A stretch of DNA of 63,052 bases from Bacteroidia bacterium (GTDB lineage Bacteria; Bacteroidota; Bacteroidia; J057): contig JAUIGE010000036.1 of NCBI GenBank assembly GCA_030430205.1, positions 1-63,052 of the forward strand. The letters are read 5' to 3'. The notes under the pieces are model-generated. The model ran no database searches and was not told where the DNA came from. It saw only the letters and a list, made by a program, of their open reading frames with translations. Both the position numbers and the translations under genes were made by a program. Below are positions 45,853 through 63,052 of this stretch, in pieces. Within the stretch, counting starts at the first letter, position 1, and every line of letters starts with the position of its first letter.

Positions 45853-48645
45853 TTAAAGCAAGGTTTCAAATCCCCCCACCCATGCTTTCGGCACCAGGTA
45901 CAAAGCACAAATCCGTTCAACTGTATCTCCTTCAGGCATATTGGCATTTTTCGCCCAACACACTTTCCCTTTTTGCGCCAGCTTTTCGATGGTCTCAGGA
46001 TCAATTGGTGCCAGAGGCGTATCCGGCTCACACTTCAGCATGTTTAGGAGGGCATCTTCCTTAATAGGCTGAATCTCATTGGATTGGGGGTCGTAAAGGA
46101 TGCGGTAGTATTCAGATGCATTTTTCAGCAGGAGATACAGAAGGGGTTTATCCCCTTCAAAAATTCTGGCACTACTGATATCATCCGGAATCGCTTTGGC
46201 CCTGTCTTCATATGTCTTAAGCGTGGTAATATGTTTCAGGAAGGGCGAAACGCCGGAGAATTCCTCCAAAGCTTCTACTTCCACCAGTCCAAGGTCTTCA
46301 ATGGTTACATTTGACAAGGGGCCAAGTGATTCGAAACGGGCATTTTCTTCCTCAGGTATAAGGGGGATTTCGCTAAACTTCTGGGCATGTTTGCTACGAC
46401 GGCTCAATTTTCTCAGTCGCTCTTCAATTCGGTGGGTCGCTTGTTTTCCTTTCAGGTTACTTTGAAAAGATCCAACAAAGGTGAAAAAATACACTTTTCT
46501 TGGTTTTTTCCATAAACGGAGAATGCGTCCTGCGCGCTGGATCAGGACGTCTGGCGTCCAGGCGAGATCATAATTGATGACGACACTGGCATCCTGGAGG
46601 TTTACCCCTGTGCTATAGGCATCGGTTGCTATCAGGATTTGATAATCTGTCAGAGAATCTTCCTGTCTGATTTTGTCCTTATTGGCTACGGGTGCAAAGC
46701 CTTTGATAAGTGGAAGAACCTCCTTGCTGAAATCTTTTAGCTCATACTCTTTTTCTCCCTTTTTAACCGTGTTTGCCACCTGGATAGCAGGTAAACATCG
46801 GTTAATGCCCTGCTCAAGGTAAATAGCTGTAGAGAGGCGTTCTGTGAAAATGATCACCTTGCGGTTTTCCCGCCGCATCCTTTTGATCAGTTCTTCCAGG
46901 GCTTTGAATTTGGGGTCATCATTCAGGTCAAAGGAATGTATTTTAGATAAAATGGGATCCAGTTTTTCTCTCCGGCTTGAAACGCTTTTTTTGAATGTAA
47001 CCTTATAGAAGGAATCTTCCATGCTATTGGCAATGACTTCCTGCATGGCCAGGGGAGAACTCATCCAGGATGTTTCTGCCAGTCCCTGAATCGTCGTTTC
47101 CGAACGCCGCCAGTTGCCCTTCCTGTCTGAAAAGGATTTAACCTTATGCAGGAAAAAGCCCTCCCGGATGACTTCCGAAATTTCCTCCTCCAAAAAGACA
47201 GGAACTTTTACTTTGCTGATTTCGATTTGGGGAATCCATCGCTTTTCTTCTCCGAAACTGATGGAATCTCCCTCTTCTTCATGTTCTGCAAAGTCTTTAG
47301 CGACCTGGGAAGTACTGATCACCGTGGCGACAGGGAGTTGGATAAACTCCTGGAAAAATTCCGGTCCTTCCTGTACCTGCCAGGCATCCGGTAGTATTTC
47401 CTCATCGATCATTCCGGGAAGAACAAATTGCCCATTGGGACGGATATGTTTGGTCTCCGCTGTGTGAGGCAATAATTCCAGCTGATTGTTCAGGTCGTCT
47501 ACTTCCTTTGAATAGGGGGTGGCCGTGAGCAACAAAACCAAAGCCTTACTTTTGCTGATGATAGGTAATAAACGAGCAAAAGCATGGCGTTTTTTGCCTG
47601 CATTCATCCCTGCCTGTTTGCTGTTTCGGAAGTGCTGACTTTCATCAATGATGATCAGGTATTTGTCATCAATTCTTCGAAAGGCGTCTTCCATTTCCTG
47701 CATCCCCTTGCCTTTGCTACTTTTGGGGGATTTGTCAAGCAGGTTTCGTGTGAAAATTTCGGCTCCCACACCCGCACTCGCCATGGCAATTCTCCAGTCA
47801 GGCTGGACCTGTACAGGGGCAAAAACAAGCACATTATAGATGCGTCTCTCCCGATGCAGGCGAAGGGCCGTGTGGGTAGCCATCACCGTTTTCCCAAGTC
47901 CTGTAGATGCCACAAGCATAGCTCCGCGTGACTCCTGAAGTTGCCTGAGGAGGCGTTCGATCACGACCATCTGGTAGCGAACGGGCATTTTGTAATTTTC
48001 CCTGGGAGGTTCTACATCCTCCTCGGGAATCAATAGCTGAATGGTTTTGAGGTAGATATCAAATGGGTCTCTAAGACTCAGCCAGGCCAGCAAGGCATCC
48101 AGCAAGGCCTGGGTCAGGTCTAGGGTATCTTCCGCCTCCCAAAAAGAATTGAATTGATCGAGGTAGTAGCGCACCCTTCCGGTTTCAAGTACAGAGGCCA
48201 TCCCTTCATAATTGTACTTTAAGCCACTTACCGTCAGGTTGCTGGAACCCACCAGTACCGTCGCTTCATCAAAAATATAAATCTTCGCATGGTCCCGATT
48301 CCTTGCCCGGGCATCCAGAAAATCCTGCTTTTTGTGCTCGATGATCTGAAACCGACCCTGCTGAATGCGTTTGACCAAATCTTCTACGGCCGCCCGGCGG
48401 TTCTCCGCATCCCACCGACTCAGATGCAACAAAATTTCGGCGATCAACAGTTCCTTCAAACGCTCCCTCGACTGCTCATCAAAACCTACCATGACCTGCA
48501 CCCACTTCTGCGCCAGGCCCTCCCGGATCAGTTCATAGCCCTGAATGGTGAAAAAGCCTGTGGCTATCTGTACTTTTTGCTGGGCTTCTGCCAGATAGGG
48601 CTGTATGAAGCCAAGGGCGCTTTTGTTCCAGTGGTCTTTTTTCAT
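45853..48645 (-). CDS. phospholipase D-like/SF2 helicase fusion
   Basis: 930 residues from ATG 48645 (MKKDHWNKSALGFIQPYLAE). The frame is open to 48855, but those 70 residues have low-complexity, non-family character. The N-terminal PLD domain (about 10-175) has one HxKxxxxD motif, HAKIYIFDEATVLVGSSN (His at residue 119), as in PLD-type nucleases. The helicase part has Walker A ASTGLGKTVMATH, DEAH-like IIIDESQHFRN, motif III LLTATPYSKE and the C-terminal lobe ILIATDAYSTGVNLQD and QRAGRILRLW. Likely cuts or remodels foreign DNA. Divergent from the DrmD-like operon, whose genes it may serve; DISARM also uses a PLD protein (DrmC) with helicases, but as separate genes. Confidence 0.88.
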   Translation of the reverse strand: MKKDHWNKSALGFIQPYLAEAQQKVQIATGFFTIQGYELIREGLAQKWVQVMVGFDEQSRERLKELLIAEILLHLSRWDAENRRAAVEDLVKRIQQGRFQIIEHKKQDFLDARARNRDHAKIYIFDEATVLVGSSNLTVSGLKYNYEGMASVLETGRVRYYLDQFNSFWEAEDTLDLTQALLDALLAWLSLRDPFDIYLKTIQLLIPEEDVEPPRENYKMPVRYQMVVIERLLRQLQESRGAMLVASTGLGKTVMATHTALRLHRERRIYNVLVFAPVQVQPDWRIAMASAGVGAEIFTRNLLDKSPKSSKGKGMQEMEDAFRRIDDKYLIIIDESQHFRNSKQAGMNAGKKRHAFARLLPIISKSKALVLLLTATPYSKEVDDLNNQLELLPHTAETKHIRPNGQFVLPGMIDEEILPDAWQVQEGPEFFQEFIQLPVATVISTSQVAKDFAEHEEEGDSISFGEEKRWIPQIEISKVKVPVFLEEEISEVIREGFFLHKVKSFSDRKGNWRRSETTIQGLAETSWMSSPLAMQEVIANSMEDSFYKVTFKKSVSSRREKLDPILSKIHSFDLNDDPKFKALEELIKRMRRENRKVIIFTERLSTAIYLEQGINRCLPAIQVANTVKKGEKEYELKDFSKEVLPLIKGFAPVANKDKIRQEDSLTDYQILIATDAYSTGVNLQDASVVINYDLAWTPDVLIQRAGRILRLWKKPRKVYFFTFVGSFQSNLKGKQATHRIEERLRKLSRRSKHAQKFSEIPLIPEEENARFESLGPLSNVTIEDLGLVEVEALEEFSGVSPFLKHITTLKTYEDRAKAIPDDISSARIFEGDKPLLYLLLKNASEYYRILYDPQSNEIQPIKEDALLNMLKCEPDTPLAPIDPETIEKLAQKGKVCWAKNANMPEGDTVERICALYLVPKAWVGGFETLL

Positions 48646-48916
48646 AGGGTGGTAAGAGCTTTTGGTGGGCATTTTTTGCCGAAAAATGGGGGCGAGTGAT
48701 AGGAGATTGTCCTGTGGAAGAAAGATAGTAGATTTTTTTGTAAAAGGAGGAAAAAGGGTGGTAAAAACGCAGGTATTTGGTGGCCTTCTCCCCTTGCAAA
48801 AATCCCCAACATCTCCTAGCTTGCTGAGAACTAACCAATGTTCTTCCAGGCTCATCTATTTATCTATGAACACAAATGGGGCCGCAGGATGAACCATCAC
48901 CTACGATGCTACCCTC
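48646..48916. other. divergent promoter region of defence island
   Basis: 271 bp between the PLD-helicase and the SNF2-helicase genes. Both promoters must lie here, but no box fits TAnnTTTG well on either strand and no inverted repeat stands out. The minus-strand frame is open through part of it, which inflates the PLD-helicase open frame. Confidence 0.4.
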
Positions 48917-51790
48917 ATGAAGCAAAACTTTGTACCAGGCACCCGAATCAGCACCCGAGGAGAAGACTTCCTCATAACAGAAGTAAAAGACAACGCAGAA
49001 GACTGGATTCTGCATGCAGAAGGGATCAGCGAGCTGGTAAAAGGAAAGAAATTCCAGTTTGACACCGCCATAGATCGCGATATACGGGTGCTCGACCCGG
49101 TGGATACGGAGTTGAAGGCAGACGTGGATGCGGGCTACCGCAAGACCAAACTCTTCCTCGAAACCCAGCTGCGCAACAGCACCAGCTACAGCCGCAAAAT
49201 CAATATCGCGCATAAAGGCGCCTTTAATATCTCGAACTATCAGTTTGATCCTACGCTGAAGGCCTTCCAGCTACCCCGTCCTCGTATCCTCATCGCCGAT
49301 GGCGTTGGCCTCGGAAAAACCATCGAAGTCGGCATTTTCCTGGCGGAAATGATCAAGCGCGGCAAAGGCAAGCGCATCATGGTGCTGGCGCTGAAGTCCA
49401 TCCTGGGACAGTTTCAGCAGGAAATCTGGAATCGCTTCGCGATTCCCCTGGTGCGCCTGGATTCCCACGGCATCGCCCAGATCAAGGCAGATCTGCCTGC
49501 CAACAAAAACCCCTTCGACTACTACGACAAGACCATCGTGTCTATCGACACGCTGAAAAACAATGCCAAATTCCGGCATTATATCGAAAAATCGCGCTGG
49601 GACATCATCGTGATCGATGAGTGCCATACGGTAGCCAATACCGGCAGCCAGCGGGGAGACCTCGCCCAATTCCTCGCCACCCAGTGCGAAGCACTGGTGC
49701 TCACCTCGGCTACGCCGCACAACGGCAAGCGCGAAAGCTTCGCCAACCTGATCCACATGATCGAGCCTACCGCCATTCCGCGCAGCGGGGAGTACGACAA
49801 ATCCGATGTGGAGCCCTATTACGTGCGGCGCTTCAAGCAGCATATTCTGGATGATGAGGTTCGGTCGAACTTTCAGGATCGAAAAATCATCCCCATCCAC
49901 GCTGCGCTTTTTCCGGAGGAAGAAGCATGGCTGGAACTGCAGCAAAAAATCAAATTTGAGGCCCTGGGCCTTGCCCGGGATTCGGCAGACAAACTTGTCA
50001 GCAACAAGAGCAGAAGAGACTTCCTCTTCTCCATCGGCCTTTTCAAGGCCTATATGTCTTCGCCTCTAGCTGCGCTGAGAAGCGTGGAGCGCAGGCTCCA
50101 AAAACTGGTCGATCGACCGCCGGAAACTTCCGATCAGGCAGAAGATAACCAGCACCTGCTGGGCGAACTCAAGAGCGGCCTGGAAAGCATCCTTGCCCAG
50201 GGGAAAGATGCCAAATACCACGCATTTCGGGATAAGCTGATCGAGCTGAAATGGAATGGCCGCAAGAAAGACGAACGCATCGTCATCTTTGCCGAGCGGA
50301 TAGATACCATCCGATACCTCAAAGAAAACCTGATCCGGGATTTTGATTTGAAAGATGAGGTGATCGCGGAGTTCCATGGCGGCTATTCCGATATGGAGCA
50401 GCAGGCCATCATCGAAGATTTTGGCAAGGAAGATTCGATTATTCGGGTGTTTATCAGTTCGGATGCAGGCTCGCAGGGGGTCAACCTGCACTACTTCTGT
50501 AACCACATGTTCAACTACGATATCCCCTGGTCGCTCATCACGCTGGAGCAGCGCAATGGCCGCATTGACCGCTACGGCCAGCAAAACACCCCATTCATTC
50601 ACTACCTGATATCCAAATCAGAAATGGAGGGCCTCAAGACAGACCTGCACATCATCGAAAACCTCACCAAAAAGGAAGAAGAGGTATACAGCGCCCTGGG
50701 AGATGCGGGCTCTGTGATGAAGCTCTACGACAGCAAAAAGGAAGAGCAGCAAATCGAAAAAGCGATTGAACAGCAGCAGGAAGATTTCCTGGAAGACGAC
50801 AGTTTTTTCGACCTGGATATGCTGTTTGGAGAAGATTCGGATATAACTGAATCATTCGTTGAGCCCGATCCCCTGGATCAGCAGATCTCGCTCTATCCCC
50901 ATGACGGAGCCTACTACCAGGCACTGATAGAGCAACTGCAGTCTGACAGGCTGCTGGCAAAGGGCGATGCCGAATTTGTCGACAGCAGCTACCTGGAGGT
51001 CAAAAACACCCGCGAATTACATCGCGTGCTCTACGACCTGCCCAAAGAGGCCAAACCGGCCCTTAACGATATCTACCGCCTGTCGCTGGACAGCGACACT
51101 GTGCAGAAAGCCATCGCGGATGCCCGCAGGAAAAAAGGCGAATGGGCCAAATTTCAGGTCCTCTATGACCTGCATCCCGTGGTACGATACTTCATGACCA
51201 AGCTGGAAGCCAGCGTGGACAAAGATGTAGCCCCCGTGGCCAAACTGCACAAACTGCCCCCCGGCTCCGCCTCCTTTGTCCTGCACGGACAGGTAGCCAA
51301 CAACATCGGCCAGGCCGTGATTTCCGAATTTTTTGTCATCACCCTGGACTTCGATGGAAGCCTGATCCGCCGACCGGAAAAACTGGCAGATTTTGTCGCG
51401 AACCAGGGCATTAGCGAGCAACTGCATACGCAGGCCATCAGTCAAGAAGAGCTTACAGCCCTCAAAAAGTTACTGCCTGATGTCGTCAGTTTTGGACAGG
51501 AAATGTATATGCAGCAAATCCAGCAGAAGCAAGGGCTGGAAATGGAGCAGAAACGCCAGGCATATACACAGCAACTGCAAAACTGGGAAAAAGAGGCCCG
51601 GGGCCAGTTAGAGCTGCAATTTGCAGAGAGCCCGGCTACGGGTTTCATCCGACGCAGGATGGAAGACAAGGAGCTCGAGATAGAAACCATCGTGAGCAAT
51701 TCCAGCCAGTATTATCATGACCTGACTTCCCTGGATCAGGATCCTTATCTCAAAGTCATCGCCGTATTTTTCAATTCCGAGCAAGCATGA
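48917..51790 (+). CDS. DrmD-like SNF2 helicase
   Basis: 957 residues, starting MKQNFVPGTRISTRGEDFLI. SF2/SNF2 helicase of the HepA/RapA-DrmD type: Walker A GVGLGKT at residues 129-135 (ILIADGVGLGKTIEVG), motif II DECH at 234-237, motif III LTSATPHNGKRESFAN, and the C-lobe IFISSDAGSQGVNLHYF (as RVFISSDAGSQG) with LEQRNGRIDRYGQ. A long acidic/glutamine-rich tail is predicted to be coiled coil (KKEEQQIEKAIEQQQEDFLE). In class 1 DISARM, DrmD is encoded next to the adenine methylase DrmMI, exactly as here (4-bp overlap with the next gene). It likely translocates on DNA in restriction. Confidence 0.9.
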   Translation: MKQNFVPGTRISTRGEDFLITEVKDNAEDWILHAEGISELVKGKKFQFDTAIDRDIRVLDPVDTELKADVDAGYRKTKLFLETQLRNSTSYSRKINIAHKGAFNISNYQFDPTLKAFQLPRPRILIADGVGLGKTIEVGIFLAEMIKRGKGKRIMVLALKSILGQFQQEIWNRFAIPLVRLDSHGIAQIKADLPANKNPFDYYDKTIVSIDTLKNNAKFRHYIEKSRWDIIVIDECHTVANTGSQRGDLAQFLATQCEALVLTSATPHNGKRESFANLIHMIEPTAIPRSGEYDKSDVEPYYVRRFKQHILDDEVRSNFQDRKIIPIHAALFPEEEAWLELQQKIKFEALGLARDSADKLVSNKSRRDFLFSIGLFKAYMSSPLAALRSVERRLQKLVDRPPETSDQAEDNQHLLGELKSGLESILAQGKDAKYHAFRDKLIELKWNGRKKDERIVIFAERIDTIRYLKENLIRDFDLKDEVIAEFHGGYSDMEQQAIIEDFGKEDSIIRVFISSDAGSQGVNLHYFCNHMFNYDIPWSLITLEQRNGRIDRYGQQNTPFIHYLISKSEMEGLKTDLHIIENLTKKEEEVYSALGDAGSVMKLYDSKKEEQQIEKAIEQQQEDFLEDDSFFDLDMLFGEDSDITESFVEPDPLDQQISLYPHDGAYYQALIEQLQSDRLLAKGDAEFVDSSYLEVKNTRELHRVLYDLPKEAKPALNDIYRLSLDSDTVQKAIADARRKKGEWAKFQVLYDLHPVVRYFMTKLEASVDKDVAPVAKLHKLPPGSASFVLHGQVANNIGQAVISEFFVITLDFDGSLIRRPEKLADFVANQGISEQLHTQAISQEELTALKKLLPDVVSFGQEMYMQQIQQKQGLEMEQKRQAYTQQLQNWEKEARGQLELQFAESPATGFIRRRMEDKELEIETIVSNSSQYYHDLTSLDQDPYLKVIAVFFNSEQA

Positions 51791-54700
51791 TCAAGTTCAT
51801 TCAAAATATAGGCGAATTCTTCGCGTCCAACTACTTCGATGAGGACTTTGGGAAAAAGGTGCTGGAGAAATCCGGCTACGCCGCCGAAGACCAAAAGGTC
51901 TTCAACAAAAAAATCAGCGCCCTCAAAGAGCGCTACTACCGCTTCAAGCAGGAACTGCTCGAAGGACGGCTGCGCACCAAAGACAAAGTCACAGAGACCC
52001 ATCGCTTCCATGCGGAAGTGCTGCTCGCCCTGGGCTATCCCGGCGACAGGCCCGAATACGAAAACCTGTTTCATGTAGATGAAAAAACGGTGCTGCCCGT
52101 CAGGCATACCCTCTATCGGGGAGAGCATCCTCACCTGATGATCATGGAGATGCATGCCCTCATCAAAGATGGGGAAGAAGAGCCCGATGGCCTCTTTGAG
52201 CAACGCTACCATGTGGAGGAGGAAGAAACTTCCGTGCCGCCGCAAAAGTACCATCGCTCCCAGTGGAGCAATGTCTTCAGCGTGCCGGAAGGGCTGAGCA
52301 TCTCGCCCATGATCATCAACAAAGCGGTCTCCGAGCTTTTCCTGCTGCCGCAGCACCGCCGCCCCCGCTACATCCTGCTCTGCGCAGGCAACCAATACTT
52401 CCTGCTGGAGCAGGAAAAATGGTTTCGCGGCAGCTACCTGCAGCTGGACCTCGAAGAGCTCTTCGATGAAGCAGCCATCAGGCGGGACTATTTCGCCCTC
52501 TTTTACTTCCTGCTCGCAAAAGAGACCCTCGCGCCCCAGGCCGAGATCGTGCTCATGGAGCAGCTCGACGAGGACTCCCATAAAAGTGCCTACGAAGTCA
52601 CCAAAGACCTCAAGGAAGGCGTCATCCACGCCGTGGAGGCCCTCGCCAATGAGGCCGTCTATTACCAGGGAGAGCAGGGTCATGACTTCAGCGAGCTGAA
52701 TGCAGACCAGCTCAAAGACGACTGCCTGAGCATGGTCTATAGGCTGTTGTTTTTGTTTTATGCCGAATCACGCGCTGATCTGGATATTTTGCCTTCCGAC
52801 GATCCCGTCTACCAGCAGGGCTACTCCCTGGAGATGCTGCGCGACCTGGAGCAGGTGCCGCTCAATACCGCCTCCAGCCAGAACGGATTTTTCTTCCATG
52901 AATCGCTCTACCGCCTCTTTGGGCTGCTTTCGGGAGGATACCGTGAGCACCAGGCTGCCAACAAAAGCTTTCGCATCCGCCACCTGGATTCGCCCCTGTT
53001 TGACAACCAAAACCTGCACTACCTGGCCGATGTCAAAATCCGCAATGTCGTCTGGCAGGATGTCATTCAGCAGCTCAGCCTTTCGCGCAAGCAAAAAGGC
53101 AAAAACCGCGGCCGCATCTCCTACGCCAACCTGGGCATCAACCAGCTGGGCAGCGTCTATGAGAGCCTGCTGGCATTCCGGGGCTTTTTTGCGGAAAGCG
53201 ATCATATCGAGGTGCACCGCAGGCGCAAAGCCAAAGAGAACTCTGACAAAGTGGCCAGCAGCGATGGCTCCTTCCTGGTGCCGCGCTCCCGCATAGATGA
53301 TTTTCATCCCGGCGAAGTATACCGGGAAAACAATGAGGAGCTGCGCATCATCCCCCAGGGGACCTTTATCTACCGCCTGAGCGGGCGCGACCGGCAGAAG
53401 TCTGCCTCCTACTACACCCCTGAGGTGCTCACCCAATGCACCGTCAAATACACCCTGAAGCCCATACTCGAGCGCCTGGATCAGGGCGAGATGACGGCCA
53501 TGGAGCTGCTTGACCTCAAAATCCTGGAGCCCGCCATGGGGGCCGCCGCCTTTCACAATGAGGTGATCAACCAACTGGCAGAGGCTTACCTCACCTACCG
53601 GCAGCAGGAACTCCGCCGCAAAGTCGCGCCCGACAAATACCGCGAAGAGCTGCAAATGGTCAAGGCCTATATCGCCCTGAACAATGTATATGGCGTGGAC
53701 ATCAACCCCACCGCCGTGGAGCTGGGCAAACTCTCCCTCTGGCTCAATGTCATCCATCGCGACATGGAGACGCCCTTCTTTGGCTACCGCCTGGGCGTGG
53801 GCAATGCCGTGATCGGCTGCTGGCTCAAAGCCTTCAAACACAAAGACTTTTCCCTGGAACGCCTCAGCCCCAGCAGCCAGCGCGCCAAAAAGAAGGAATG
53901 GTGGAAAAAAGCCCCCAAACACCTGAAGTTTGGCAAGGAGCGCATCCTGCGGCGGGAAGATGAAATCTACCACTTCCTGCTGCCCGATCCGGGCATGCTC
54001 GCCTCCGCAGGCATTAAGCTACTCAAATCAGAATACCCCGCTCAGGCCAAAAGCCTCAGTGAGTGGAGCAAAAGCTTCACGGAGCCCATCCGCATGGAGG
54101 AGTACCAACTGCTGCAGCGGCTGTGTGAAAAGATAGACGTCCTGCTGGAAGCACACTATGCTTACCAAAAACAGGTCAATGCCCTGACAGCAGGCAAACT
54201 CAACTTCTTCGGCGTAGAAGCGCCCGAGATAGGCCTGCGCAACTACCGCGAGAAGGAGCGCATCGCCGCCGAGCGCTACGCCCATAATGCGCCCTACTTC
54301 AAGCTCAAAATGATCATGGACTACTGGTGTAGCCTCTGGTTTTGGGATATGCGCGAAGCCGCGGCCCTGCCTGAGCGCGGAGACTGGTGGCGCGATCTGC
54401 TCTATATCTGTGACCATGAGCTGACAGGTAAAGAAGAAGAAACAAGCCTCTCCAGCTACCGCAAAGGCGAAGCCGCCGAGGCCGCCAGCCAGGAACTGGC
54501 CGCACAGGCCAGGCGAACGGACCTCTTCGCCAATACCCGCCTGCAGCGGGTGCGGGAGTATGCCGCGCGCTACCGCTTTTTCCACTACCAGTTGGAGTTT
54601 ATTGAGGTCTTCAAAGAGCGTGGAGGCTTCGATGTGGCGGTGGGCAATCCGCCCTGGCTCAAGCTGCAATTCGAAGAGAAAGGCCTGATGTCAGAGCTAT

Positions 54701-56562
54701 ATCCCGAGCTGGAGATCCGCAAGGTGTCTGCGCCCCAGGTGCGTAAGCTGCAAGCAGCCTTTCTGGAACAGCCGGAGCAACAGGAAGCCTATTTTGCTGA
54801 AAATATTGAATATGCTGCCTCTACGGCCTTTATGAATGCCTACCAGAACTATCCCCTGCTCGTGGGCCAACAAACCAACCTCTATAAATGTGTGCTGGAA
54901 AATGGCTTTCATTGGGTATCGGAGCAGGGCTATTTAGGCCTGCTGCATCCTGAAGGGGTGTATGATGATCCTAAGGGGGAGCCATTGCGGAAAGAGATGT
55001 ATCAGCGGCTTCAATTTCATTTTCAGTTTAAAAATGAACTGATGCTTTTTAGCGAGATCGATCATCATAATGCTTATGGAGCGCACATTTACGCAGGAAA
55101 AACCACCTCTCCAGACTTTTTCTCCATCAATAACCTATTCCATCCTGCCACCATTGATGGTTCTTTTGTACACGATGGCAGGGGACTGGCGGGAGGCTAT
55201 AAGGTAAAAGATGAGCAGGCAGGCAAAATGGTCTGGAATATTCACCCGCATCAGGATCGGATCGTACGCATAGGAGAAAAGGAGTTAAAAGTTCTGGCCC
55301 AAACCTTCGAAAACAGCAAAGATTGGCAGGGAGCCAAATTGGTCAGTATCCATTCCGCCAAATTGCTTGCTGTACTGGAAAAGCTGGGGCAATTCCCGAC
55401 AAGTGTAGGAGATTTTGAGAATAAAATCAGTGAAGGCTGGCACGAAACCAATGCAGTTAATGAAGGCATAATAGAGCGAAATACCCAATACCCTGATTTG
55501 GAAAAGTATGAACTCATCTACAGCGGTCCCCACTTTTTTGTAGGCAATCCCCTCTATAAAACCCCGCGCGAGGTCTGTGAGCTGAATTCTCACTACGATG
55601 TAATCGACCCCAGCGAAATCCCGGCAGATTATCTGCCGCGGACGAATTATATCCCCCCAAAAATAGATGAGAACTATATCTCCGCCATCAAAGGTTTTGA
55701 GATAGGTAAGGATACAGGGGGGAAGGCAGTTTATGATGATTGGTTGGGGTATTATAAGGTGGGCTATAGAAGAAGGCTCGCTCAAGGGGGAGAACGTACC
55801 CTCATTTGTAGCATCTTACCTCCAAAAGCAGCCAACGTACACCCTGTTATTACTGCTATTTTAAAAGATGAAAATCGACTAATAGAATTATCTGGACTCT
55901 GTTCATCTTTAGTATTTGATTTCTTAATTAAAACCGTTGGAAAATCAGATTTATATGAGAGTACCCTAAATAGTTTTCCACTGGATATCTTAGCAGGGTA
56001 TCGAAGTCTCCTCTTCTCCCGCACCCTCCTCCTCAACTGCCTCAACCAATACTACGCCCCCCTTTGGGCACGCCACTACGATCCTGCCTTCCGGCAGGAC
56101 AGCTGGAGCAAGGTAGATACCCGCCTCAAGCCTTTTGACAGCCTCGGCCCGGAATGGGCCTGGGAGACACCCTTGCGCAACTGGTACGAGCGTCGTCAGG
56201 CGCTCGTAGAGATCGATGTGATCACGGCCATGGCCCTGGGCCTGGAGCTGGAGGAGCTGATCCTGATGTATAATGTGCAGTTTCCCGTCCTCCAGCAAAA
56301 TGAGGACGATACCTGGTATGACCAGCGCGGGAATATCGTCTTTACCTGCTCCAAGGGGCTGACAGGGGTGGGCGTGGATCGGCCGGTTTGGAATACCATC
56401 CGCGATTTGAAGGCGGGAGAGACCTATACACATGTCATTGAGAAGAGTGAGTTGTATTATGGGAAGGAGGTGGTTTATTATGCGCCTTTTGACAAATGTG
56501 ACCGGGTGGAGGATTATCGGGTGGCCTGGGTGCATTTTGGTTCAATCTTTGAAGTAAGTTAG
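51787..56562 (+). CDS. large adenine-N6 DNA methyltransferase (Eco57I/DrmMI-like)
   Basis: 1591 residues, starting MIKFIQNIGEFFASNYFDED; ATG overlaps the helicase stop by 4 bp (51787-51790). SAM motif I is ILEPAMGAAAF (579 onward); the catalytic NPPW tetrad is at 954-957 (FDVAVGNPPWLKL), the signature of gamma-type N6-adenine methylases of the Eco57I/PglX/DrmMI group. The N-terminal 570 residues are a helical region as in these proteins; the C-terminal part (about 960-1591) should hold the target-recognition domain. Base composition changes sharply inside the gene: GC-rich to about 54780, AT-richer to about 55990, GC-rich again after. Probably marks self DNA. Confidence 0.9.
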   Translation: MIKFIQNIGEFFASNYFDEDFGKKVLEKSGYAAEDQKVFNKKISALKERYYRFKQELLEGRLRTKDKVTETHRFHAEVLLALGYPGDRPEYENLFHVDEKTVLPVRHTLYRGEHPHLMIMEMHALIKDGEEEPDGLFEQRYHVEEEETSVPPQKYHRSQWSNVFSVPEGLSISPMIINKAVSELFLLPQHRRPRYILLCAGNQYFLLEQEKWFRGSYLQLDLEELFDEAAIRRDYFALFYFLLAKETLAPQAEIVLMEQLDEDSHKSAYEVTKDLKEGVIHAVEALANEAVYYQGEQGHDFSELNADQLKDDCLSMVYRLLFLFYAESRADLDILPSDDPVYQQGYSLEMLRDLEQVPLNTASSQNGFFFHESLYRLFGLLSGGYREHQAANKSFRIRHLDSPLFDNQNLHYLADVKIRNVVWQDVIQQLSLSRKQKGKNRGRISYANLGINQLGSVYESLLAFRGFFAESDHIEVHRRRKAKENSDKVASSDGSFLVPRSRIDDFHPGEVYRENNEELRIIPQGTFIYRLSGRDRQKSASYYTPEVLTQCTVKYTLKPILERLDQGEMTAMELLDLKILEPAMGAAAFHNEVINQLAEAYLTYRQQELRRKVAPDKYREELQMVKAYIALNNVYGVDINPTAVELGKLSLWLNVIHRDMETPFFGYRLGVGNAVIGCWLKAFKHKDFSLERLSPSSQRAKKKEWWKKAPKHLKFGKERILRREDEIYHFLLPDPGMLASAGIKLLKSEYPAQAKSLSEWSKSFTEPIRMEEYQLLQRLCEKIDVLLEAHYAYQKQVNALTAGKLNFFGVEAPEIGLRNYREKERIAAERYAHNAPYFKLKMIMDYWCSLWFWDMREAAALPERGDWWRDLLYICDHELTGKEEETSLSSYRKGEAAEAASQELAAQARRTDLFANTRLQRVREYAARYRFFHYQLEFIEVFKERGGFDVAVGNPPWLKLQFEEKGLMSELYPELEIRKVSAPQVRKLQAAFLEQPEQQEAYFAENIEYAASTAFMNAYQNYPLLVGQQTNLYKCVLENGFHWVSEQGYLGLLHPEGVYDDPKGEPLRKEMYQRLQFHFQFKNELMLFSEIDHHNAYGAHIYAGKTTSPDFFSINNLFHPATIDGSFVHDGRGLAGGYKVKDEQAGKMVWNIHPHQDRIVRIGEKELKVLAQTFENSKDWQGAKLVSIHSAKLLAVLEKLGQFPTSVGDFENKISEGWHETNAVNEGIIERNTQYPDLEKYELIYSGPHFFVGNPLYKTPREVCELNSHYDVIDPSEIPADYLPRTNYIPPKIDENYISAIKGFEIGKDTGGKAVYDDWLGYYKVGYRRRLAQGGERTLICSILPPKAANVHPVITAILKDENRLIELSGLCSSLVFDFLIKTVGKSDLYESTLNSFPLDILAGYRSLLFSRTLLLNCLNQYYAPLWARHYDPAFRQDSWSKVDTRLKPFDSLGPEWAWETPLRNWYERRQALVEIDVITAMALGLELEELILMYNVQFPVLQQNEDDTWYDQRGNIVFTCSKGLTGVGVDRPVWNTIRDLKAGETYTHVIEKSELYYGKEVVYYAPFDKCDRVEDYRVAWVHFGSIFEVS

Positions 56563-56600
56563 TTTACTTCAATGCCTCCAAATATAATTTATCAAGCCTT

Positions 56601-59600
56601 ATGAAATCCCAGAAAGATGTTGAACAAGAATTGTGTGAGCTGTGGGGTATCCCACGCCTAACGGTTCTGGCTGATTGCTATCAGCAAATTAATGGTAAAA
56701 AAGCCTTTCGGAATGTCAAGACCTCCAGGGGAAAACGCTGTCTCTTACCTAATGGGAGGCCTCTGACTCTCTATGATGGCAAAAATCAGGATAAGTATGT
56801 AGCAGGGGAGGAGTATAAACTGAACTTGTTTTTAGCGCGGGATGAGATTCGCATAGAGCGGGAAAATCCTTTTCTCTTGTTGATAGATACGATCAATCAC
56901 CCGCCCAGAAAAAATACCCTAATCCCGCAAAAGCGGATAGCTCAAATCCAGCGCAGTTATCTGGATACCCGGGGAGAGGCCAAGCAATCGTTGATTGGCT
57001 CAATGAAGCGCTTATCTGCCGAGACCAACAAAAAACCAGAAACGTTTCTCTATGAGCTGATTCAAAATGCGGATGACTACCCCGATGAAGAAAAGGGAGG
57101 GGTACAAATGGGCTTTCGATTAACCGATAACTACCTGGTGCTATTGCATGATGGGCAGCCTTTTGGGCCTGCTAATGTATCTGCAATTTGTACAGTAGAT
57201 GGAGGAGATAAAAGTGAGGATTTGGATAAAACAGGCTTTAAGGGAATTGGCTTTAAATCTATTTTCAAAGATTCCAATTACGTCTGGATTCACTCCGGGG
57301 GATTTTCCTTTCGATTCGATCAGGGACACTTCCATCAAATGGGAACGGACTATCCCTGGCAGGTGATACCTATCTGGACGGATATAGAGCAGGATATAGA
57401 TGGTGAAATTGTCAATCCCGATGTATTGAATGCGCCCGTTTCTATTTGCATTCGGCCCAAAGAAGGGCAACCCAAGCTGCATACTTATGAGGAGATTTTT
57501 ACATCGGTTTTTAAAGATGAGCGTGTGCTGCTTTTCTTGAGAAATGTAAAGAGCATTGCTTTTAAGGGATATAATGGGACAGGTTTTAGGATAAAAAAAT
57601 CAGATGATAAATGGTGTTTTGGCAGTTCCGGTGCCATACAACCACCTGAGGAGCTGGTTGCTTCTATTAATCGGGCCATTGAAAAGAGCATGGACGATAG
57701 GATTCCGGAAAAATACAAAGACATCCAATCTACCCTGATTAGCTATGCCGTGGCCGTAGAGGAAGGGAAGCTTACCCAGACAGAGCGTGCGACCCTCTAT
57801 GCATACCTGCCAACAAGCGTAGACTTTGGTTTGCCTTTTTTGATCAATGGAGACTTTATTCCTGATGGAAGCAGGGATAATTTGTTCTGGGACCTGGAAT
57901 GGAATCGTTTTCTATTTCAGTCAGCGGGAAAGTACCTGCTCAAGTGGCTGGCAGACTTATATACTGAGCGCAGAGAAACGGCCATCTATGGGACCCTGCT
58001 TCCAGGCATTTCCCGCCTGATAGCGAAACAAACAGAACCGGAAAAAAAGACCTATCTCGAACTTTTTCAGGCTGGATTGGAAGAAGGAATAGCAAGCTTT
58101 GCTTTTCTTCCGGATAATCAACAAAAACTCCGGGCGTTCGGGGAATTAATCTTCGATAGTACAGGCTTGTTTTATCTGATTCCTGCCCACTTCCTTGCAG
58201 AGATCAACAAACCTGGGGAATTAATTCATCATGACCTCATTACACATGAAGGAATAAAAGAGCTTTTTGAAAGCAAAGAAGCTAATCTGATAGATCTCCA
58301 GGATCTCAAAAAACTGTTTGGCAATGCTGCCTTCCAGGCTTGGCTATCTGATCCTTTACATAATGTCATTCTGCTTTCTTTTCTTTCCACTAAAAGCTGG
58401 CTACGGAGTTTTGATGACTATGCAATTTTTCTGAATCAACATGGACAACTTTGCAATCGAACAGGTTTGTATCTATCATTTGGAGAAGATGAGGCACTTC
58501 TGAGTTGGAGCCAAAGTGATTTTTTGCATTCTGATTTGCAAGCCTCCCTGAGTGAAAAGGAGTTGTTCCTCAAGAAATATGAACCCCAAATCTTTATCCG
58601 GGAAGAAGTTTTGGAGAAGCCTGACCAGCAAAAAATTGCAGATAAAGCACACAATATTGCTTTTTGGAGTTATCTGAAAAAGTATCAGGCTGGTCTGAGT
58701 GAAAACGATATAAAGATACTGGTATCTAAACCGGTATTTTCCATGGATGAGGCTCCCTATCTGCTCAATACGTCTTTATGGTTTAACTATGAGCCTAATA
58801 GCGCCTCGATTTTCCAGGAGGATTTATTTCCCGCTCACCTCTTTCGGGTAATAGACCCGGAATATAACCGGGAGGATGCTGAAGCCTGGAAAGCTTTCTG
58901 GCAGAAAATGGGGGTGAAAGATTATAGCTATGAGAATGGGGCCATTTTCAAGCTACTTTTCATCGATTATGCATCTCATATTGAGGCCCGTCTTAAGCAG
59001 GCAGAAGTGCAGGAATCCTCTAAAATCCCCGGTTTTAGTAGCCTTTGGGTCGAACTGAGTCGTTTCTTGCCTCACTTCAAACGGGAGGAATGGAAGGCCA
59101 TGTTGGCGAGTGTTAGGAAGCTACCCGTTTTAACAACACAGGGTAACTGGGTCCCAATAGGAGACTGCTATTTGTCTCAGGAGTATACAGGCAATGATAC
59201 CCTCGAAAAGCTGGCAATTGAAAATGAAGACCTGAATTGCATATTTCTTTCAGCTGATTATTTGAAGGACAATCGCCTTTCTCTTTCAAAATGGGCTGCC
59301 TTATTCCAAAAATGTGGGATCAAAAAAGATGAGGCAGATTTTGTTAGCTACCTCGTTAAGAAAATTGGAGAGATAGATCCAAAAGATTTGATCTCTAAGA
59401 CCCAGTTTTTGTTTAAAAACAAGTCCTACATCGATGATTGGGAAACCAAGTTGAAAGATTTAAAGCTGTTGAATGCCCATGGTGACCCTCAATCCCCTTC
59501 AGATTTGTTAATAGGAGAACCTTATACGGATAATTTGCTTTTTGACTCTGTGCTGCCTTCAATTGAACTGAGTCAGGCTATTTCACCTGATTATCTGATA

Positions 59601-62030
59601 GGATACGAGGGGAAGAAAGCCGCTTGGGAGGGATTTTTTGAAGCCTTAAGCGCAAAGTCTGTTCGAGAACAGGAGGGATTGCTTAAGCTTAAAATGGAGG
59701 TTTTGTTGGCTTCTTTGGAGGATTTTAAAGAGGTTGAGAAGTCGGTTCAATTGGTGAATGAGTTGTATGAATTGCATTCGGAGGGGCTGTTGGAGGATTA
59801 TTATGAGGGTTTGCATGAGCTTCCATTACTAACAAAAAAGGAAGGGGAGTTTAGAACTGCGAAATATTTGCAGCAAGGTTCGGTTTATGAACCAGAATTG
59901 GATTTGGAGGGCATGCTTACATCTTTAGAGACGTATGAGTTTGCTTTTATTCATGATATTTATGCAAATCGCATTTCTGATCTTGATCAATTTTTTTCGA
60001 TTTTTCTAAATAAAATTGGCGTTTCAAGATGGTGGAAAATTAATGTTGTTCCAGATGTAGGAAGGCCAGCCCTAAATAAATCTTTTGAGGACTATTTTAA
60101 ATTTTTGGATATGTCAAATGCGTATCCTCCACTATATCAAAGGTATCCTGCACAGCATGGACTACTAAGTTTTAGATATTTATATTTCTCTAGAGCATTA
60201 CATGAATATAATTCATCACTATCATTTTGGAAGTCGTTTAATGAACAATTCTACCTTTTGTTTGAAAAAGTCAAGTATTGGGTTTATGGAAATAAAAACA
60301 TGACATATGAAGTGATTTCTCCATTTTTATATTTTATAAAAAATAACCCTGTCATACCAGCAACAGACGGCCAATGTCACCTTCCCGAAGACTTATATTC
60401 TATCAAACTCAAACCTATTTTAAAAACCAGCGCATTATATTCTGTTGTTGATCTTTCTCAAATATTTTTTGAGCAAGAGGATCGGATTTCACTGGAGGCC
60501 TGGTTGGGAATTAACCAAACCCTTTCTTTAAAACATTGCCTGGATAGGATTTCTGAACTACAGGATTATGCTAAATTAAAAAAGGAAGGAATATGGAAGA
60601 GATTAGAGGAAATACTCCCTCTGGGTGCTCTTGGAGATGCTGAACTTGAAGCTCTGGAAAGTTTTGGCAAAACGGGCAAGCTTCCTAACCAATTAGGTGA
60701 CTGGAAACCGCTTGAGGAACTATATTATATCTGGGATGAGTTCGATTTGGGGCTGGGTAATAGCCCATGGTTGATCAAGGATGACCTAACTTTTATAGCT
60801 AAAGAATTAGATCTCAATGCATTAGAAGAGAGTGACTTTGAGCCTCAATTTAGAAATGAGCGGATTGATACAGAATTTACAAACTGGCTCAAAAAGCGGC
60901 TTCCATATTTGGCATTTGCTGAACAGCATGATGCATGGGAAGAAAGGTATGATCATTACCTTGATATCTTAAATGAACATATTTTCAAACGAGTTGATCG
61001 GATTTCTTTTGTGTATCCCCAAATAGAGCCTCCTATTGCCAATTCTGAGAAATTATTTTTTGAGAAAGAAAAAACCATCTACCATGTCGGTTCCTGGAGT
61101 AATTTGAGAGGCAAGGACCTGATGACATTTATCCATAAGCTGCTAGACATTCGAAATACTGATTTTTTCCAAAATATACTTCTTTGGGATGATGATGAGC
61201 TTTTTGAATACTTCCAGGAGAAAAACATGAATCTTCCTGCAGCCCTGAAACCAAAGGAAACTCCTCCTCCTGGCGAAAATGGTCATGTATCGATTCCAGC
61301 TGTTGTTGGAAGCAGGATTCAAAATGATTCCAGGATAGAAGAACCTGTACCAACATATCCCACATCTGAAGAGACCGAGGATGGAGAGAATGCAACACCG
61401 TCTAAAAATCCAGATTATCCTGATTCCTTCACAGAAGAGGAGATAAAAAAGCTGGAAGATCTTTTTGGCAACAATGCACCTGCAAACTCACGCGAAGACT
61501 TGAATCTGGCAGCAATCGTTTCCTGCCTGGTTTTTCTGGAATCCCAGGGGTATGGCATTGAAGAGGCCGAGGAGAATTTGAAAGAATCGCGTGAATATGC
61601 TCAACTCTATCCGGTATTTCTGCCCGGAGAAGACCCTGAACGAGATTCTCCTATCACCGTTATGTGCCGGTCTGCCAAGGCTGAATTGCTGTATCTAAGA
61701 AGTTCGTCCTGGGAGAGGCTTAAAGACCCCCTGATTCATCTTTACCTGAAAACAGGTGACGGCAGGTTAGATTATCATTATTGCCAAACGAGAGAGGAAG
61801 TCATTCAGGATGAAAAAGCCGCTTATAGGGTACTCCGGGTTGAAATGGAAGGAGGGGTAGAAAGTATTGATGATTTGCTTAAGGGGCAATATGATAAAGA
61901 AAAAGTTTGGCTGTTATTGAGAACGAAAAACTCTCAAAAGAATAAGGCAATTTTTGAGAAAAATATTCGCCCAAAAGAGGCGGGGGATACCTCAAGTAAT
62001 GCCCATGTAGGTGGGGAAAACGAAATTTAG
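56601..62030 (+). CDS. giant sacsin/HSP90-type GHKL ATPase
   Basis: 1809 residues, starting MKSQKDVEQELCELWGIPRL. The ATPase domain at about 115-260 has the GHKL motifs: N box FLYELIQNADDYP (Asn156), G1 VLLHDGQPFG (Asp184-Gly185), and G2 KTGFKGIGFKSIF (GIGF 215-218), in the form used by sacsin and related HSP90-like proteins. The next 1300 residues have no recognised domain and look helical. The last approximately 200 residues (after a Pro/Glu/Asn-rich linker near 1530-1600) form a separate globular unit, LYLRSSSWERLKDPLIHLYL. GHKL ATPases are known in restriction-like operons (MORC-type). 38 bp after the methylase; more AT-rich than it. Confidence 0.85.
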   Translation: MKSQKDVEQELCELWGIPRLTVLADCYQQINGKKAFRNVKTSRGKRCLLPNGRPLTLYDGKNQDKYVAGEEYKLNLFLARDEIRIERENPFLLLIDTINHPPRKNTLIPQKRIAQIQRSYLDTRGEAKQSLIGSMKRLSAETNKKPETFLYELIQNADDYPDEEKGGVQMGFRLTDNYLVLLHDGQPFGPANVSAICTVDGGDKSEDLDKTGFKGIGFKSIFKDSNYVWIHSGGFSFRFDQGHFHQMGTDYPWQVIPIWTDIEQDIDGEIVNPDVLNAPVSICIRPKEGQPKLHTYEEIFTSVFKDERVLLFLRNVKSIAFKGYNGTGFRIKKSDDKWCFGSSGAIQPPEELVASINRAIEKSMDDRIPEKYKDIQSTLISYAVAVEEGKLTQTERATLYAYLPTSVDFGLPFLINGDFIPDGSRDNLFWDLEWNRFLFQSAGKYLLKWLADLYTERRETAIYGTLLPGISRLIAKQTEPEKKTYLELFQAGLEEGIASFAFLPDNQQKLRAFGELIFDSTGLFYLIPAHFLAEINKPGELIHHDLITHEGIKELFESKEANLIDLQDLKKLFGNAAFQAWLSDPLHNVILLSFLSTKSWLRSFDDYAIFLNQHGQLCNRTGLYLSFGEDEALLSWSQSDFLHSDLQASLSEKELFLKKYEPQIFIREEVLEKPDQQKIADKAHNIAFWSYLKKYQAGLSENDIKILVSKPVFSMDEAPYLLNTSLWFNYEPNSASIFQEDLFPAHLFRVIDPEYNREDAEAWKAFWQKMGVKDYSYENGAIFKLLFIDYASHIEARLKQAEVQESSKIPGFSSLWVELSRFLPHFKREEWKAMLASVRKLPVLTTQGNWVPIGDCYLSQEYTGNDTLEKLAIENEDLNCIFLSADYLKDNRLSLSKWAALFQKCGIKKDEADFVSYLVKKIGEIDPKDLISKTQFLFKNKSYIDDWETKLKDLKLLNAHGDPQSPSDLLIGEPYTDNLLFDSVLPSIELSQAISPDYLIGYEGKKAAWEGFFEALSAKSVREQEGLLKLKMEVLLASLEDFKEVEKSVQLVNELYELHSEGLLEDYYEGLHELPLLTKKEGEFRTAKYLQQGSVYEPELDLEGMLTSLETYEFAFIHDIYANRISDLDQFFSIFLNKIGVSRWWKINVVPDVGRPALNKSFEDYFKFLDMSNAYPPLYQRYPAQHGLLSFRYLYFSRALHEYNSSLSFWKSFNEQFYLLFEKVKYWVYGNKNMTYEVISPFLYFIKNNPVIPATDGQCHLPEDLYSIKLKPILKTSALYSVVDLSQIFFEQEDRISLEAWLGINQTLSLKHCLDRISELQDYAKLKKEGIWKRLEEILPLGALGDAELEALESFGKTGKLPNQLGDWKPLEELYYIWDEFDLGLGNSPWLIKDDLTFIAKELDLNALEESDFEPQFRNERIDTEFTNWLKKRLPYLAFAEQHDAWEERYDHYLDILNEHIFKRVDRISFVYPQIEPPIANSEKLFFEKEKTIYHVGSWSNLRGKDLMTFIHKLLDIRNTDFFQNILLWDDDELFEYFQEKNMNLPAALKPKETPPPGENGHVSIPAVVGSRIQNDSRIEEPVPTYPTSEETEDGENATPSKNPDYPDSFTEEEIKKLEDLFGNNAPANSREDLNLAAIVSCLVFLESQGYGIEEAEENLKESREYAQLYPVFLPGEDPERDSPITVMCRSAKAELLYLRSSSWERLKDPLIHLYLKTGDGRLDYHYCQTREEVIQDEKAAYRVLRVEMEGGVESIDDLLKGQYDKEKVWLLLRTKNSQKNKAIFEKNIRPKEAGDTSSNAHVGGENEI

Positions 62031-62909
62031 ATGAATACAATACCCAATGAACAGCATGTCCGGTTTTATGAATGGCAGATTCAGATACTGGAAGAGGCGT
62101 GGTTGCGGTATGCAAATACCCCCATGAATACCTTATGGATGAGCAAAAAATTATTTGTAGGAAGGATATGGGGTATACAGCATGCCCAGGGAAATGTGAT
62201 TCTACGATTTAAAGCAGGCGCATTGCCCAGAATCAAAAACCACTATTTGTTGTCATTGGTAACTCCTGATCTGGGACACAACCCTGCATCCTGGTCATTT
62301 TCATACCTCGAGTTCAGGTCGTCGACTCAACCTCGTTTATCAGGAAAAAATACAGAGGTTAAACCCGTGTATTTGCTGAAATCAGAAGATCCCAAATGGG
62401 TATATGTAGCTGTCTCCAATTTTGACCATGCACTTTTTAATGATATTGAGACACAATTTTTATCTCAAAAGCAGCATCCTTTAGTAGTTTTGGCAGAAAC
62501 AGATCCACCTGTAGACTACCTGCTTAAGTTAAAGGAGTTTGTTTCCCGGAATCCAAGACATCCTATCCTGAATTTGGATTTGCTGAAACGAGATAACGAG
62601 TGGAGGCCCACTAATTTGGATAATCAGGGAGATATTTCTCCTCAACTTATCAACTTGATCGAAGCGAATCATACCATTCTGGTTCAAGGACCACCCGGAA
62701 CGGGGAAGTCTTATTTGGCGGCACAGATTTGTTCCGATTATCTGCAGAAAGATAAAACAGTAGCTGTAACTGCTTTAACAAATAAGGCCCTGGTGGAAGT
62801 CGTTGGAAAGGAGCCTCTTGCTCACGCCTTGCTGGAAGGTAATTTGTTCAAAACAAATTTATCAGCAGATGAGAAAAAACAATTCCCCTTAGGAACAGTG
62901 ACAAAATAA
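62031..62909 (+). pseudogene. SF1 (UPF1/DNA2-like) helicase, truncated by insertion sequence
   Basis: 292 residues; the ATG at 62031 abuts the previous stop (TAG 62028-62030). An N-terminal beta-rich region (about 1-170) precedes the SF1 start HTILVQGPPGTGKSYLAAQI (Walker A GPPGTGKS at 220-227) and motif Ia VAVTALTNKALVE. A full-length SF1 helicase needs motifs II-VI over several hundred more residues; here the frame ends at 62909 after KKQFPLGTVTK. The last five residues probably belong to the insertion sequence that starts at about 62892. The gene completes the GHKL-ATPase operon and is likely inactive in this strain. Confidence 0.8.
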
Positions 62910-63052
62910 ATCATCGAACTAATTATTATCTTGCTGATAAAAAGAAATGACTCCTTACTCTTCTGACATAGAGGCAAAAATGGTGACTTACTACACAAGT
63001 TTACCTGAAAAATCTGCCCGTCATTATGCTGCTCTGGAATCCTTGAAGCTAG
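62892..63052 (+). mobile_element. left end of an insertion sequence (ISAzo13-like), partial
   Basis: The helicase homology is lost near 62891. ggaacagtgacaaaataaat begins directly after a TA dinucleotide (62890-62891), a plausible element end. The transposase starts at 62947. The right end and the rest of the helicase lie beyond the window, so the boundary is inferred. Confidence 0.55.
62947..63052 (+). CDS. transposase N-terminus (ISAzo13-like), partial
   Basis: The first 35 codons are open to the window end: MTPYSSDIEAKMVTYYTSLP, then EKSARHYAALESLKL. The pattern DIEAKM ... LxEKxxRxYAAxExLKL is the usual opening of ISAzo13-family transposases in Bacteroidota, before their helix-turn-helix. 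The family call rests on this short stretch and on memory of the family. Confidence 0.65.
   Translation, partial: MTPYSSDIEAKMVTYYTSLPEKSARHYAALESLKL

Follow-up and report, generated by a model that had tools for sequence, protein, structure and literature searches.

ARMADA Type II is described in a recent preprint (Bell et al. 2025, PMC12458937) as consisting of a BrxHII-like ArmA, a PglX-like ArmB, a YprA-like ArmC and a GajB-like ArmD, and in Escherichia coli ARMADA gives direct, non-abortive protection against phages that requires all four genes. The gene order of Type II is termed "strict" in the main text of the preprint, and ARMADA is also mentioned in PMC13192584 and PMC12904381. We analysed an entire 63,052-bp contig of a Bacteroidia bacterium (GenBank JAUIGE010000036.1, assembly GCA_030430205.1; contig C41, hereafter the window), which ends in a run of defence genes. 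These genes very probably belong to an ARMADA Type II operon of the form armA-armB-[TmtA-type ATPase - SF1 helicase]-armC-armD, whose armB/armC boundary acts as a slot for cargo genes. What is new here is that a TmtA-type ATPase and a superfamily 1 (SF1) helicase separate armB from armC in a system described as having a "strict" order. The terms 'accessory', 'Tiamat', 'additional gene' and 'Bacteroidota' do not occur in the main text of PMC12458937 (supplements not covered), and no description of an ARMADA cargo slot was recognised in literature searches by title and abstract, which did not cover most subscription journals or supplements. The nearest prior idea is that of auxiliary or backup effectors inside BREX and BR loci (Rakesh and Krishnan 2026, PMC12839542).

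All four core genes have open frames, and all eight residues mutated in the E. coli system are conserved here in alignments to the E. coli plasmid homologue, including ArmA K134 and D234 (E. coli K136 and D236) and ArmB N954, within the motif NPPW, and G585 (E. coli N971 and G605). ArmA was 34.7% identical to the E. coli plasmid gene over 989 columns, and also matched the PADLOC DrmD profile (304 bits). ArmB was 39% identical to its plasmid homologue and matched PADLOC PDLC03614 over residues 1-1589 with 1672 bits. ArmC carries DEAD, Helicase_C and MZB domains (the last at 48.6 bits) and shares 50% identity with the ArmC of another locus (L033) over 1937 columns, while ArmD has UvrD domains and GajB profile matches and is 34% identical to the E. 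coli plasmid ArmD. The roughly 240 residues ahead of the ArmD helicase domain yielded no RelE domain in Pfam. The order A-B-C-D is retained, but two genes and a repeat separate armB from armC. Two stretches of ArmB (residues ~700-900 and ~1100-1400) were less conserved than the rest, at 39-65% identity per 100 residues to four relatives vs 51-84% elsewhere, and are possible target-recognition parts.

The second half of this operon is hidden from the window because the contig ends inside a repeat. The SF1 helicase that the initial annotation listed as the fourth plus-strand gene is not intact: its open reading frame (ORF) runs to position 62909 and encodes 292 residues, yet only about 285 N-terminal residues (to ~62888) are helicase and the remainder is repeat. 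About 130 bp of this repeat also ends contigs C12, C5 and C4, with differing flanks, copies of its right end start contigs C60, C38, C6 and C48, and a partial copy lies in C14. The two repeat ends share an imperfect inverted repeat, and the element was read from its sequence as a putative insertion sequence (IS). The SF1 protein of Belliella calami (L052) aligned to the window over residues 10-293 (51% identity) and to C6:121-1014 over residues 295-593 (49%). These complementary SF1 halves, together with the matching repeat ends, argue strongly that C41 joins C6 through the repeat. Directly behind the second SF1 half on C6 are ArmC, which alone in the genome matches YprA strongly (two further matches reached at most 26 bits), and ArmD. 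We are thus highly confident of the gene order armA, armB, TmtA-type ATPase, SF1 helicase (split), armC, armD.

Seen without C6, the locus suggested a different reading, in which an undescribed DISARM-related system has a sacsin-type ATPase and an SF1 helicase functionally replacing DrmA and DrmB. No YprA helicase follows the methylase within the window alone, and the SNF2 helicase and methylase do resemble DrmD and DrmMI; the initial annotation was right to see a DISARM-related defence locus with these two genes in the same order and overlap. However, the apparent absence of DrmA and DrmB is an artefact of the contig end, and ArmC and ArmD follow the ATPase and helicase instead of being replaced by them. 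ArmC also follows the same pair in L047, L052, L062 and L063, and in other loci the boundary is either shorter than 400 bp or filled with different cargo (below). Replacement of DrmA/DrmB is therefore very improbable, and, given the C41-C6 join, a DISARM system lacking both was rejected on account of armC-armD on C6, which identify the locus as ARMADA Type II. The window illustrates that a known system can be mistaken for a new one when a contig ends inside it.

The first cargo gene encodes an 1809-residue protein that matched PADLOC TmtA (PDLC03972, 553 bits) in three stretches, the best of which spans residues 110-774, and the NCBIfam P_loop_sacsin model (66.5 bits, cutoff 50). PADLOC TmtA belongs to Tiamat, a single-gene system. 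Residues 100-500 are the best conserved large stretch of the TmtA-type protein, which has conserved ELIQNADD and GFKGIGFKS motifs, presumably the GHKL boxes. The window half of the SF1 helicase carries a GPPGTGKS Walker A motif, and the predicted fold of its L052 homologue is of the Upf1/Dna2 type (mean predicted local distance difference test score, pLDDT, 73.4), with Dna2 as the best PDB match (E 2.7e-16, query TM-score 0.45). PDB sequence searches with the ATPase and with an ArmB profile gave no matches. The papers listed by a literature search on Tiamat were unrelated, and the sacsin passages in PMC3710099 were set aside because they deal with sacsin of animals and with HEPN domains.

Relatives of the ATPase are sparse. 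A search of genome contigs with the 1809-residue protein alone found none, and across 149 genomes only four others matched, in short and weak alignments. Among plasmids, the ATPase query returned 13 records at ~22-27% identity, none covering 80% of the query, and the N-terminal SF1 part of the window and the L052 SF1 homologue returned three and six records, respectively, all distant. In a phylum sample of 395 genomes, TmtA-type profile matches (E<=1e-40) were found in G000, G158, G327 and G447, and SF1 profile matches (E<=1e-25) at full strength in G000 (two halves) and G327, and more weakly in G299 and G338. No SF1 match above 60 bits was present in the stretches around the G158 and G447 genes, so TmtA-type genes also occur without the helicase. 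The initial annotation had named, as grounds for refuting its reading, that homologues of the ATPase and SF1 helicase occur mostly without the methylase/SNF2 pair, and the outcome goes partly against that reading: four of the 395 genomes hold an ATPase relative, and three of these four are outside the 10 genomes with ArmB-family matches.

The two cargo genes could instead be true extra subunits of a Bacteroidota ARMADA subtype, forming one complex with ArmA-D. Their tight coupling behind armB would fit this, as the SF1 gene directly follows the TmtA-type gene in six ARMADA loci (L047, L050, L052, L062, L063 and the window). However, relatives manage without the pair: armB and armC are only 91 bp and 6 bp apart in L075 and L083, both of which possess the complete core, and in L057, where the contig begins inside armB, armC and armD follow after 51 bp. 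A similar pair stands beside a type I restriction endonuclease-like gene, PDC-S02 and pAgo (897 bits) in G327, with no arm gene above 60 bits in 15 kb, although the contig ends soon after and a downstream armC is possible. The TmtA-type protein is also far less conserved (30-34% identity to L050, L052 and L062; 23% to L047) than ArmB (69% to L062; 67% to L047). We consider this explanation unlikely.

We assessed whether the armB-armC boundary is a preferred position for additional genes using the best 80 of 533 loci retrieved with an ArmB alignment. Because the ranking followed similarity to the window ArmB, the slot frequencies are not those of all ARMADA; each locus was examined with a 10-kb flank, which cut off bigger inserts. 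Loci with a measurable gap numbered 59 for armB-armC, 69 for armA-armB and 26 for armC-armD, and the 21 loci unmeasured for armB-armC reflect contig ends, armC past the flank, armC elsewhere (L119) or broken genes. Gaps of at least 400 bp occurred at armB-armC in 42 of 59 loci, at armA-armB in 10 of 69 and at armC-armD in 3 of 26 (Fisher p = 4e-11 for B-C vs A-B and 3e-7 for B-C vs C-D, which serve only as guides because the loci share ancestry). Gaps of at least 1,500 bp numbered 34, 4 and 0, respectively. The three armC-armD gaps were artefacts of an ArmC query cut at the locus edge, and the reading frames show an armC/armD overlap in each of them. Where A-B and B-C were both measured (53 loci), only B-C was open in 32, both in 7 and only A-B in none; the armB-armC gap was below 400 bp in 17 of the 59. 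The counts retain L110, whose ArmC call is weak (157 bits vs 128 for a DruE decoy). L074, in which armB and armC are broken, was given no cargo label; its 482-residue 'cargo' ORF, one of the 50 scanned with PADLOC, is a piece of armB.

Slot occupancy extended over several phyla, with 18 of 23 Bacteroidota loci, 13 of 15 Pseudomonadota, 4 of 4 Thermodesulfobacteriota, 2 of 4 Cyanobacteriota and 5 of 8 others occupied. On viral contigs, armB and armC were both present in six of seven loci, three of them with more than 3 kb between. Among the eight ArmB genomes fetched from the phylum sample besides G000, armC lies directly behind armB in six (G377, G401, G409, G340, G522 and G415) and cargo is present in two (G275 and G475). 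The other boundaries and flanks also yielded individual observations. L052 has a NOV_C protein and a SoFic-like Fic protein between armA and armB (L052:7569-9969), and L062, a Cyclobacterium jeungdonense locus, has two ORFs of similar size there (L062:7583-9980), marking a rarer second insertion place. L119 carries its ArmC-like gene on the opposite strand and upstream of armA, an arrangement showing that the A-B and C pieces are open to rearrangement. Behind armD in L130, on the opposite strand, are a TPR protein with a weak NERD match and a CHAT-TPR protein (L130:9979-16786).

Many relatives hold different defence genes exactly at the armB-armC boundary, so that the operon looks like a docking site. 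Of the 147 cargo ORFs that were clustered from relatives, 50 were scanned with PADLOC; the 42 occupied loci account for 98 of the 147 and for 44 of the 50. Solo TmtA genes occupy the slot of L048, L053 and L061 (906, 938 and 1138 bits), and by clustering TmtA-type genes are present in 10 of 42 occupied slots (L047, L048, L052, L053, L058, L061, L062, L063, L065 and L124) and in four loci without a measurable armC (L050, L068, L071 and L073). Other cargo comprises AbiEi with AbiEii (L064, and L060 by clustering; the cargo of G275 was read as an AbiE pair from its position and near-identical core), MkoA-like with IetA (L059), Orf5/HEC-06-like proteins (L078 and L109), Zorya I A-D (L091, likewise L100 by clustering), Zorya II A, B and E (L095, likewise L111 by clustering), PifA (L122), a PDC-M55C/HEC-05-like protein (L116), a DrmD-like helicase with TmtA (L124) and TmtA on viral contig L153. 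An insert too large for the 10-kb flank, in G475 (L034/L045), covers ~24 kb from armB to an ArmC match of 193 residues, with which the examined stretch ends, and contains an AbiLi-like gene, two large proteins without a PADLOC match, PprRE, PprDinG and PprPIWI (pPIWI-RE). No PADLOC match was obtained for four of eight scanned ORFs in G475 and two of five in viral contigs. Some recurring cargo had no clear PADLOC name, namely a family of 417-638 residues (cluster 3; L068, L076, L117 and L122, loci of three phyla), whose scanned members L076 and L122 gave only weak pAgo matches and, in L076, weak Csa3/CARF-type matches, and proteins of 850 and 640 residues common to L051 and L077. A cargo-collecting boundary inside a defence operon thus offers a positional search site for unknown systems.

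The limits of exchange coincide with gene ends. In five pairs with different slots (L091/L095, L091/L093, L111/L115, L048/L075 and L122/L113), DNA homology breaks off 17-30 bp short of the last base of the armB stop codon and picks up again at a point from 11 bp before to 1 bp after the armC start. In an ArmB tree of 81 rows, the window included, hand-given cargo labels change at least 34 times and occupied/empty status at least 14 times. For named cargo plus empty slots (57 rows, with rows labelled 'short' or 'otherCargo' excluded), there were 21 changes compared to a mean of 29.9 and a minimum of 27 in 1000 shuffles; for occupied/empty (75 rows), there were 14 compared to a mean of 21.7 and a minimum of 15, also in 1000 shuffles. 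The tree has fewer changes than the shuffles, and on this phylogenetic evidence slot content is partly inherited with the core and partly exchanged.

Several observations weigh against a cargo slot in this operon, or limit its reach. The C41-repeat-C6 join is deduced from the two gene halves and the repeat ends. The slot is occupied in none of five Bacillota loci and is not universal: an E. coli armB-armC junction query matched 518 of 5426 genomes (493 over at least 80% of the query), and 59 of the 60 junction records listed have no insert, the remaining one spanning an IS3 transposase gene. Inserts are found at armA-armB as well, if less often than at armB-armC. Same-strand ORFs fill at least 70% of 28 of the 34 intervals of at least 1,500 bp, and some intervals hold little same-strand coding. 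Nine of the 50 scanned cargo proteins had no PADLOC match at E<=1e-5, and several others matched weakly. Lastly, the fold predicted for the C-terminal 250 residues of the TmtA-type protein (mean pLDDT 61.7) had no significant counterpart in the PDB (best E 0.24) and was not used.

A boundary that fills in this way could be a by-product of defence-island churn, tolerated at this point as A-B and C-D must stay together, with no functional link between cargo and core. We regard this as a serious possibility, if somewhat short of an even chance. Cargo is highly diverse and includes self-sufficient systems such as AbiE, Zorya and pPIWI-RE, in G327 a TmtA+SF1 pair stands without an observed arm gene, and the armA-armB boundary accepts inserts too. 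On the other side, in two phyla and one viral contig the slot repeatedly holds TmtA-type genes, which match different PADLOC models, and cargo is mostly co-directional (89 ORFs of at least 150 residues on the operon strand and 9 on the opposite strand in the 42 occupied loci) with exchange points at gene ends, although this is not proof of function. Whether the nested defences are merely co-inherited or back up the host operon is a testable question raised by the slot.

By analogy with the E. coli system, ArmB would mark host DNA, and ArmA, ArmC and ArmD would act directly on unmarked phage DNA. The TmtA-type protein, with its conserved N-terminal ATPase region and fast-changing middle, could be an infection sensor or an ATP-driven switch, and the Upf1/Dna2-like helicase a nucleic-acid translocase that executes its response. 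The cassette would then form a second line of defence transcribed together with the core, and the slot would let the core carry along and swap such a second defence. We tentatively suggest, as a possibility rather than an expectation, a dedicated dock: a two-part chassis (a marking pair, armA-armB, and an attack pair, armC-armD) that holds an exchangeable second defence under its own transcription and guards against core-disarming phages, with the TmtA+Upf1/Dna2-like module as a helicase-coupled Tiamat variant working in and outside ARMADA. In this strain, the repeat interrupts the SF1 gene, so that the cassette is probably inactive or damaged; it also parts armC-armD from armA-armB, which may weaken the core.

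The features are listed in Table 1. ORF calls reproduced the five gene coordinates, the 4-bp overlap and the 38-bp and 0-bp gaps of the initial annotation, and profiles bore out its domain content (SNF2-related with Helicase_C, Eco57I-type methylase, sacsin-type ATP-binding domain, and PLDc with helicase). Its proposal that the divergent PLD-helicase substitutes for DrmC fared less well: the gene was not found at the matching place beside armA in 80 relatives, and with no conserved place there nothing supports the substitution. Its best tblastn match in relatives, if any, was the ArmA helicase core, with one exception, a DrmD-like cargo gene. It matched PADLOC C3a139 'HKD+Snf2' (90 bits) and may be a separate single-gene defence. 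Elsewhere in the window (16333-32019), an ORF of 5228 residues with SdrD_B, SpaA and PKD domains in its first 2555 residues encodes a giant surface adhesin-like protein.

Table 1. Coordinates of the operon, its repeat and the divergent neighbour (window positions unless prefixed with C6).
Feature	Position	Strand	Remarks
PLD(HKD)-SF2 helicase fusion, divergent, 1000 aa	45853-48855	-	PLDc_2 + Helicase_C (Pfam); neighbour, outside operon count
armA, BrxHII/RapA-like SNF2 helicase, 957 aa	48917-51790	+	SNF2-related + Helicase_C
armB, Eco57I/PglX-like N6-adenine methylase, 1591 aa	51787-56562	+	4-bp overlap with armA
Cargo gene 1, TmtA-type (Tiamat-like) sacsin/GHKL ATPase, 1809 aa	56601-62030	+	38-bp gap after armB
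Cargo gene 2, N-terminal half, Upf1/Dna2-like SF1 helicase, split	62031-62888	+	0-bp gap after cargo gene 1
Left end of repeat read as putative IS	62891-63052	+	Contig terminates within repeat
armC, YprA-like helicase, 2091 aa	C6:1043-7318		Directly after second SF1 half
armD, GajB-like UvrD helicase	C6:7315-9420		Directly after armC

Compared to described systems, the locus is closest to ARMADA Type II, with which it shares all four core proteins, their order and the eight mutated residues, and from which it differs in that armB and armC are separated by two cargo genes and a repeat. Like DISARM class 1, it has a DrmD-like helicase followed by a DrmMI-like methylase; unlike that system, it has a single 2091-residue YprA helicase with a fused MZB domain in place of separate DrmA and DrmB. 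Class 1 was rejected on the lack of a DrmA with a separate DUF1998 protein DrmB and on an NCBIfam DISARM_DrmD score of 328 bits, below the cutoff of 610. Hma and BR were likewise rejected: Pfam tables for six window proteins, ArmC and ArmD contain no DUF499 ATPase (HmaC), in keeping with the doubt about Hma in the initial annotation, and no HmaC is among the PADLOC matches listed. The likeness to Tiamat lies in the sacsin-type protein and in the solo TmtA genes occupying the same slot in L048, L053 and L061, whereas the window gene is directly coupled to a Upf1/Dna2-like SF1 helicase inside ARMADA. Mokosh (PADLOC MkoA) has an SF1 helicase core in common with cargo gene 2 (118.6 bits for the L047 homologue and 93 bits for that of L052), but the SF1 proteins, of 581-711 residues, match only parts of the 1112- and 1607-position MkoA models. 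The terms 'YprA' and 'DISARM' do not occur in the main text of PMC12839542, where BREX and BR auxiliary effectors, as presented there, resemble the ARMADA cargo in being defence genes that sit inside or next to a related methylase/helicase operon. They differ in being nuclease effectors, whereas the ARMADA slot is one boundary with multi-gene systems and sacsin-type ATPases.

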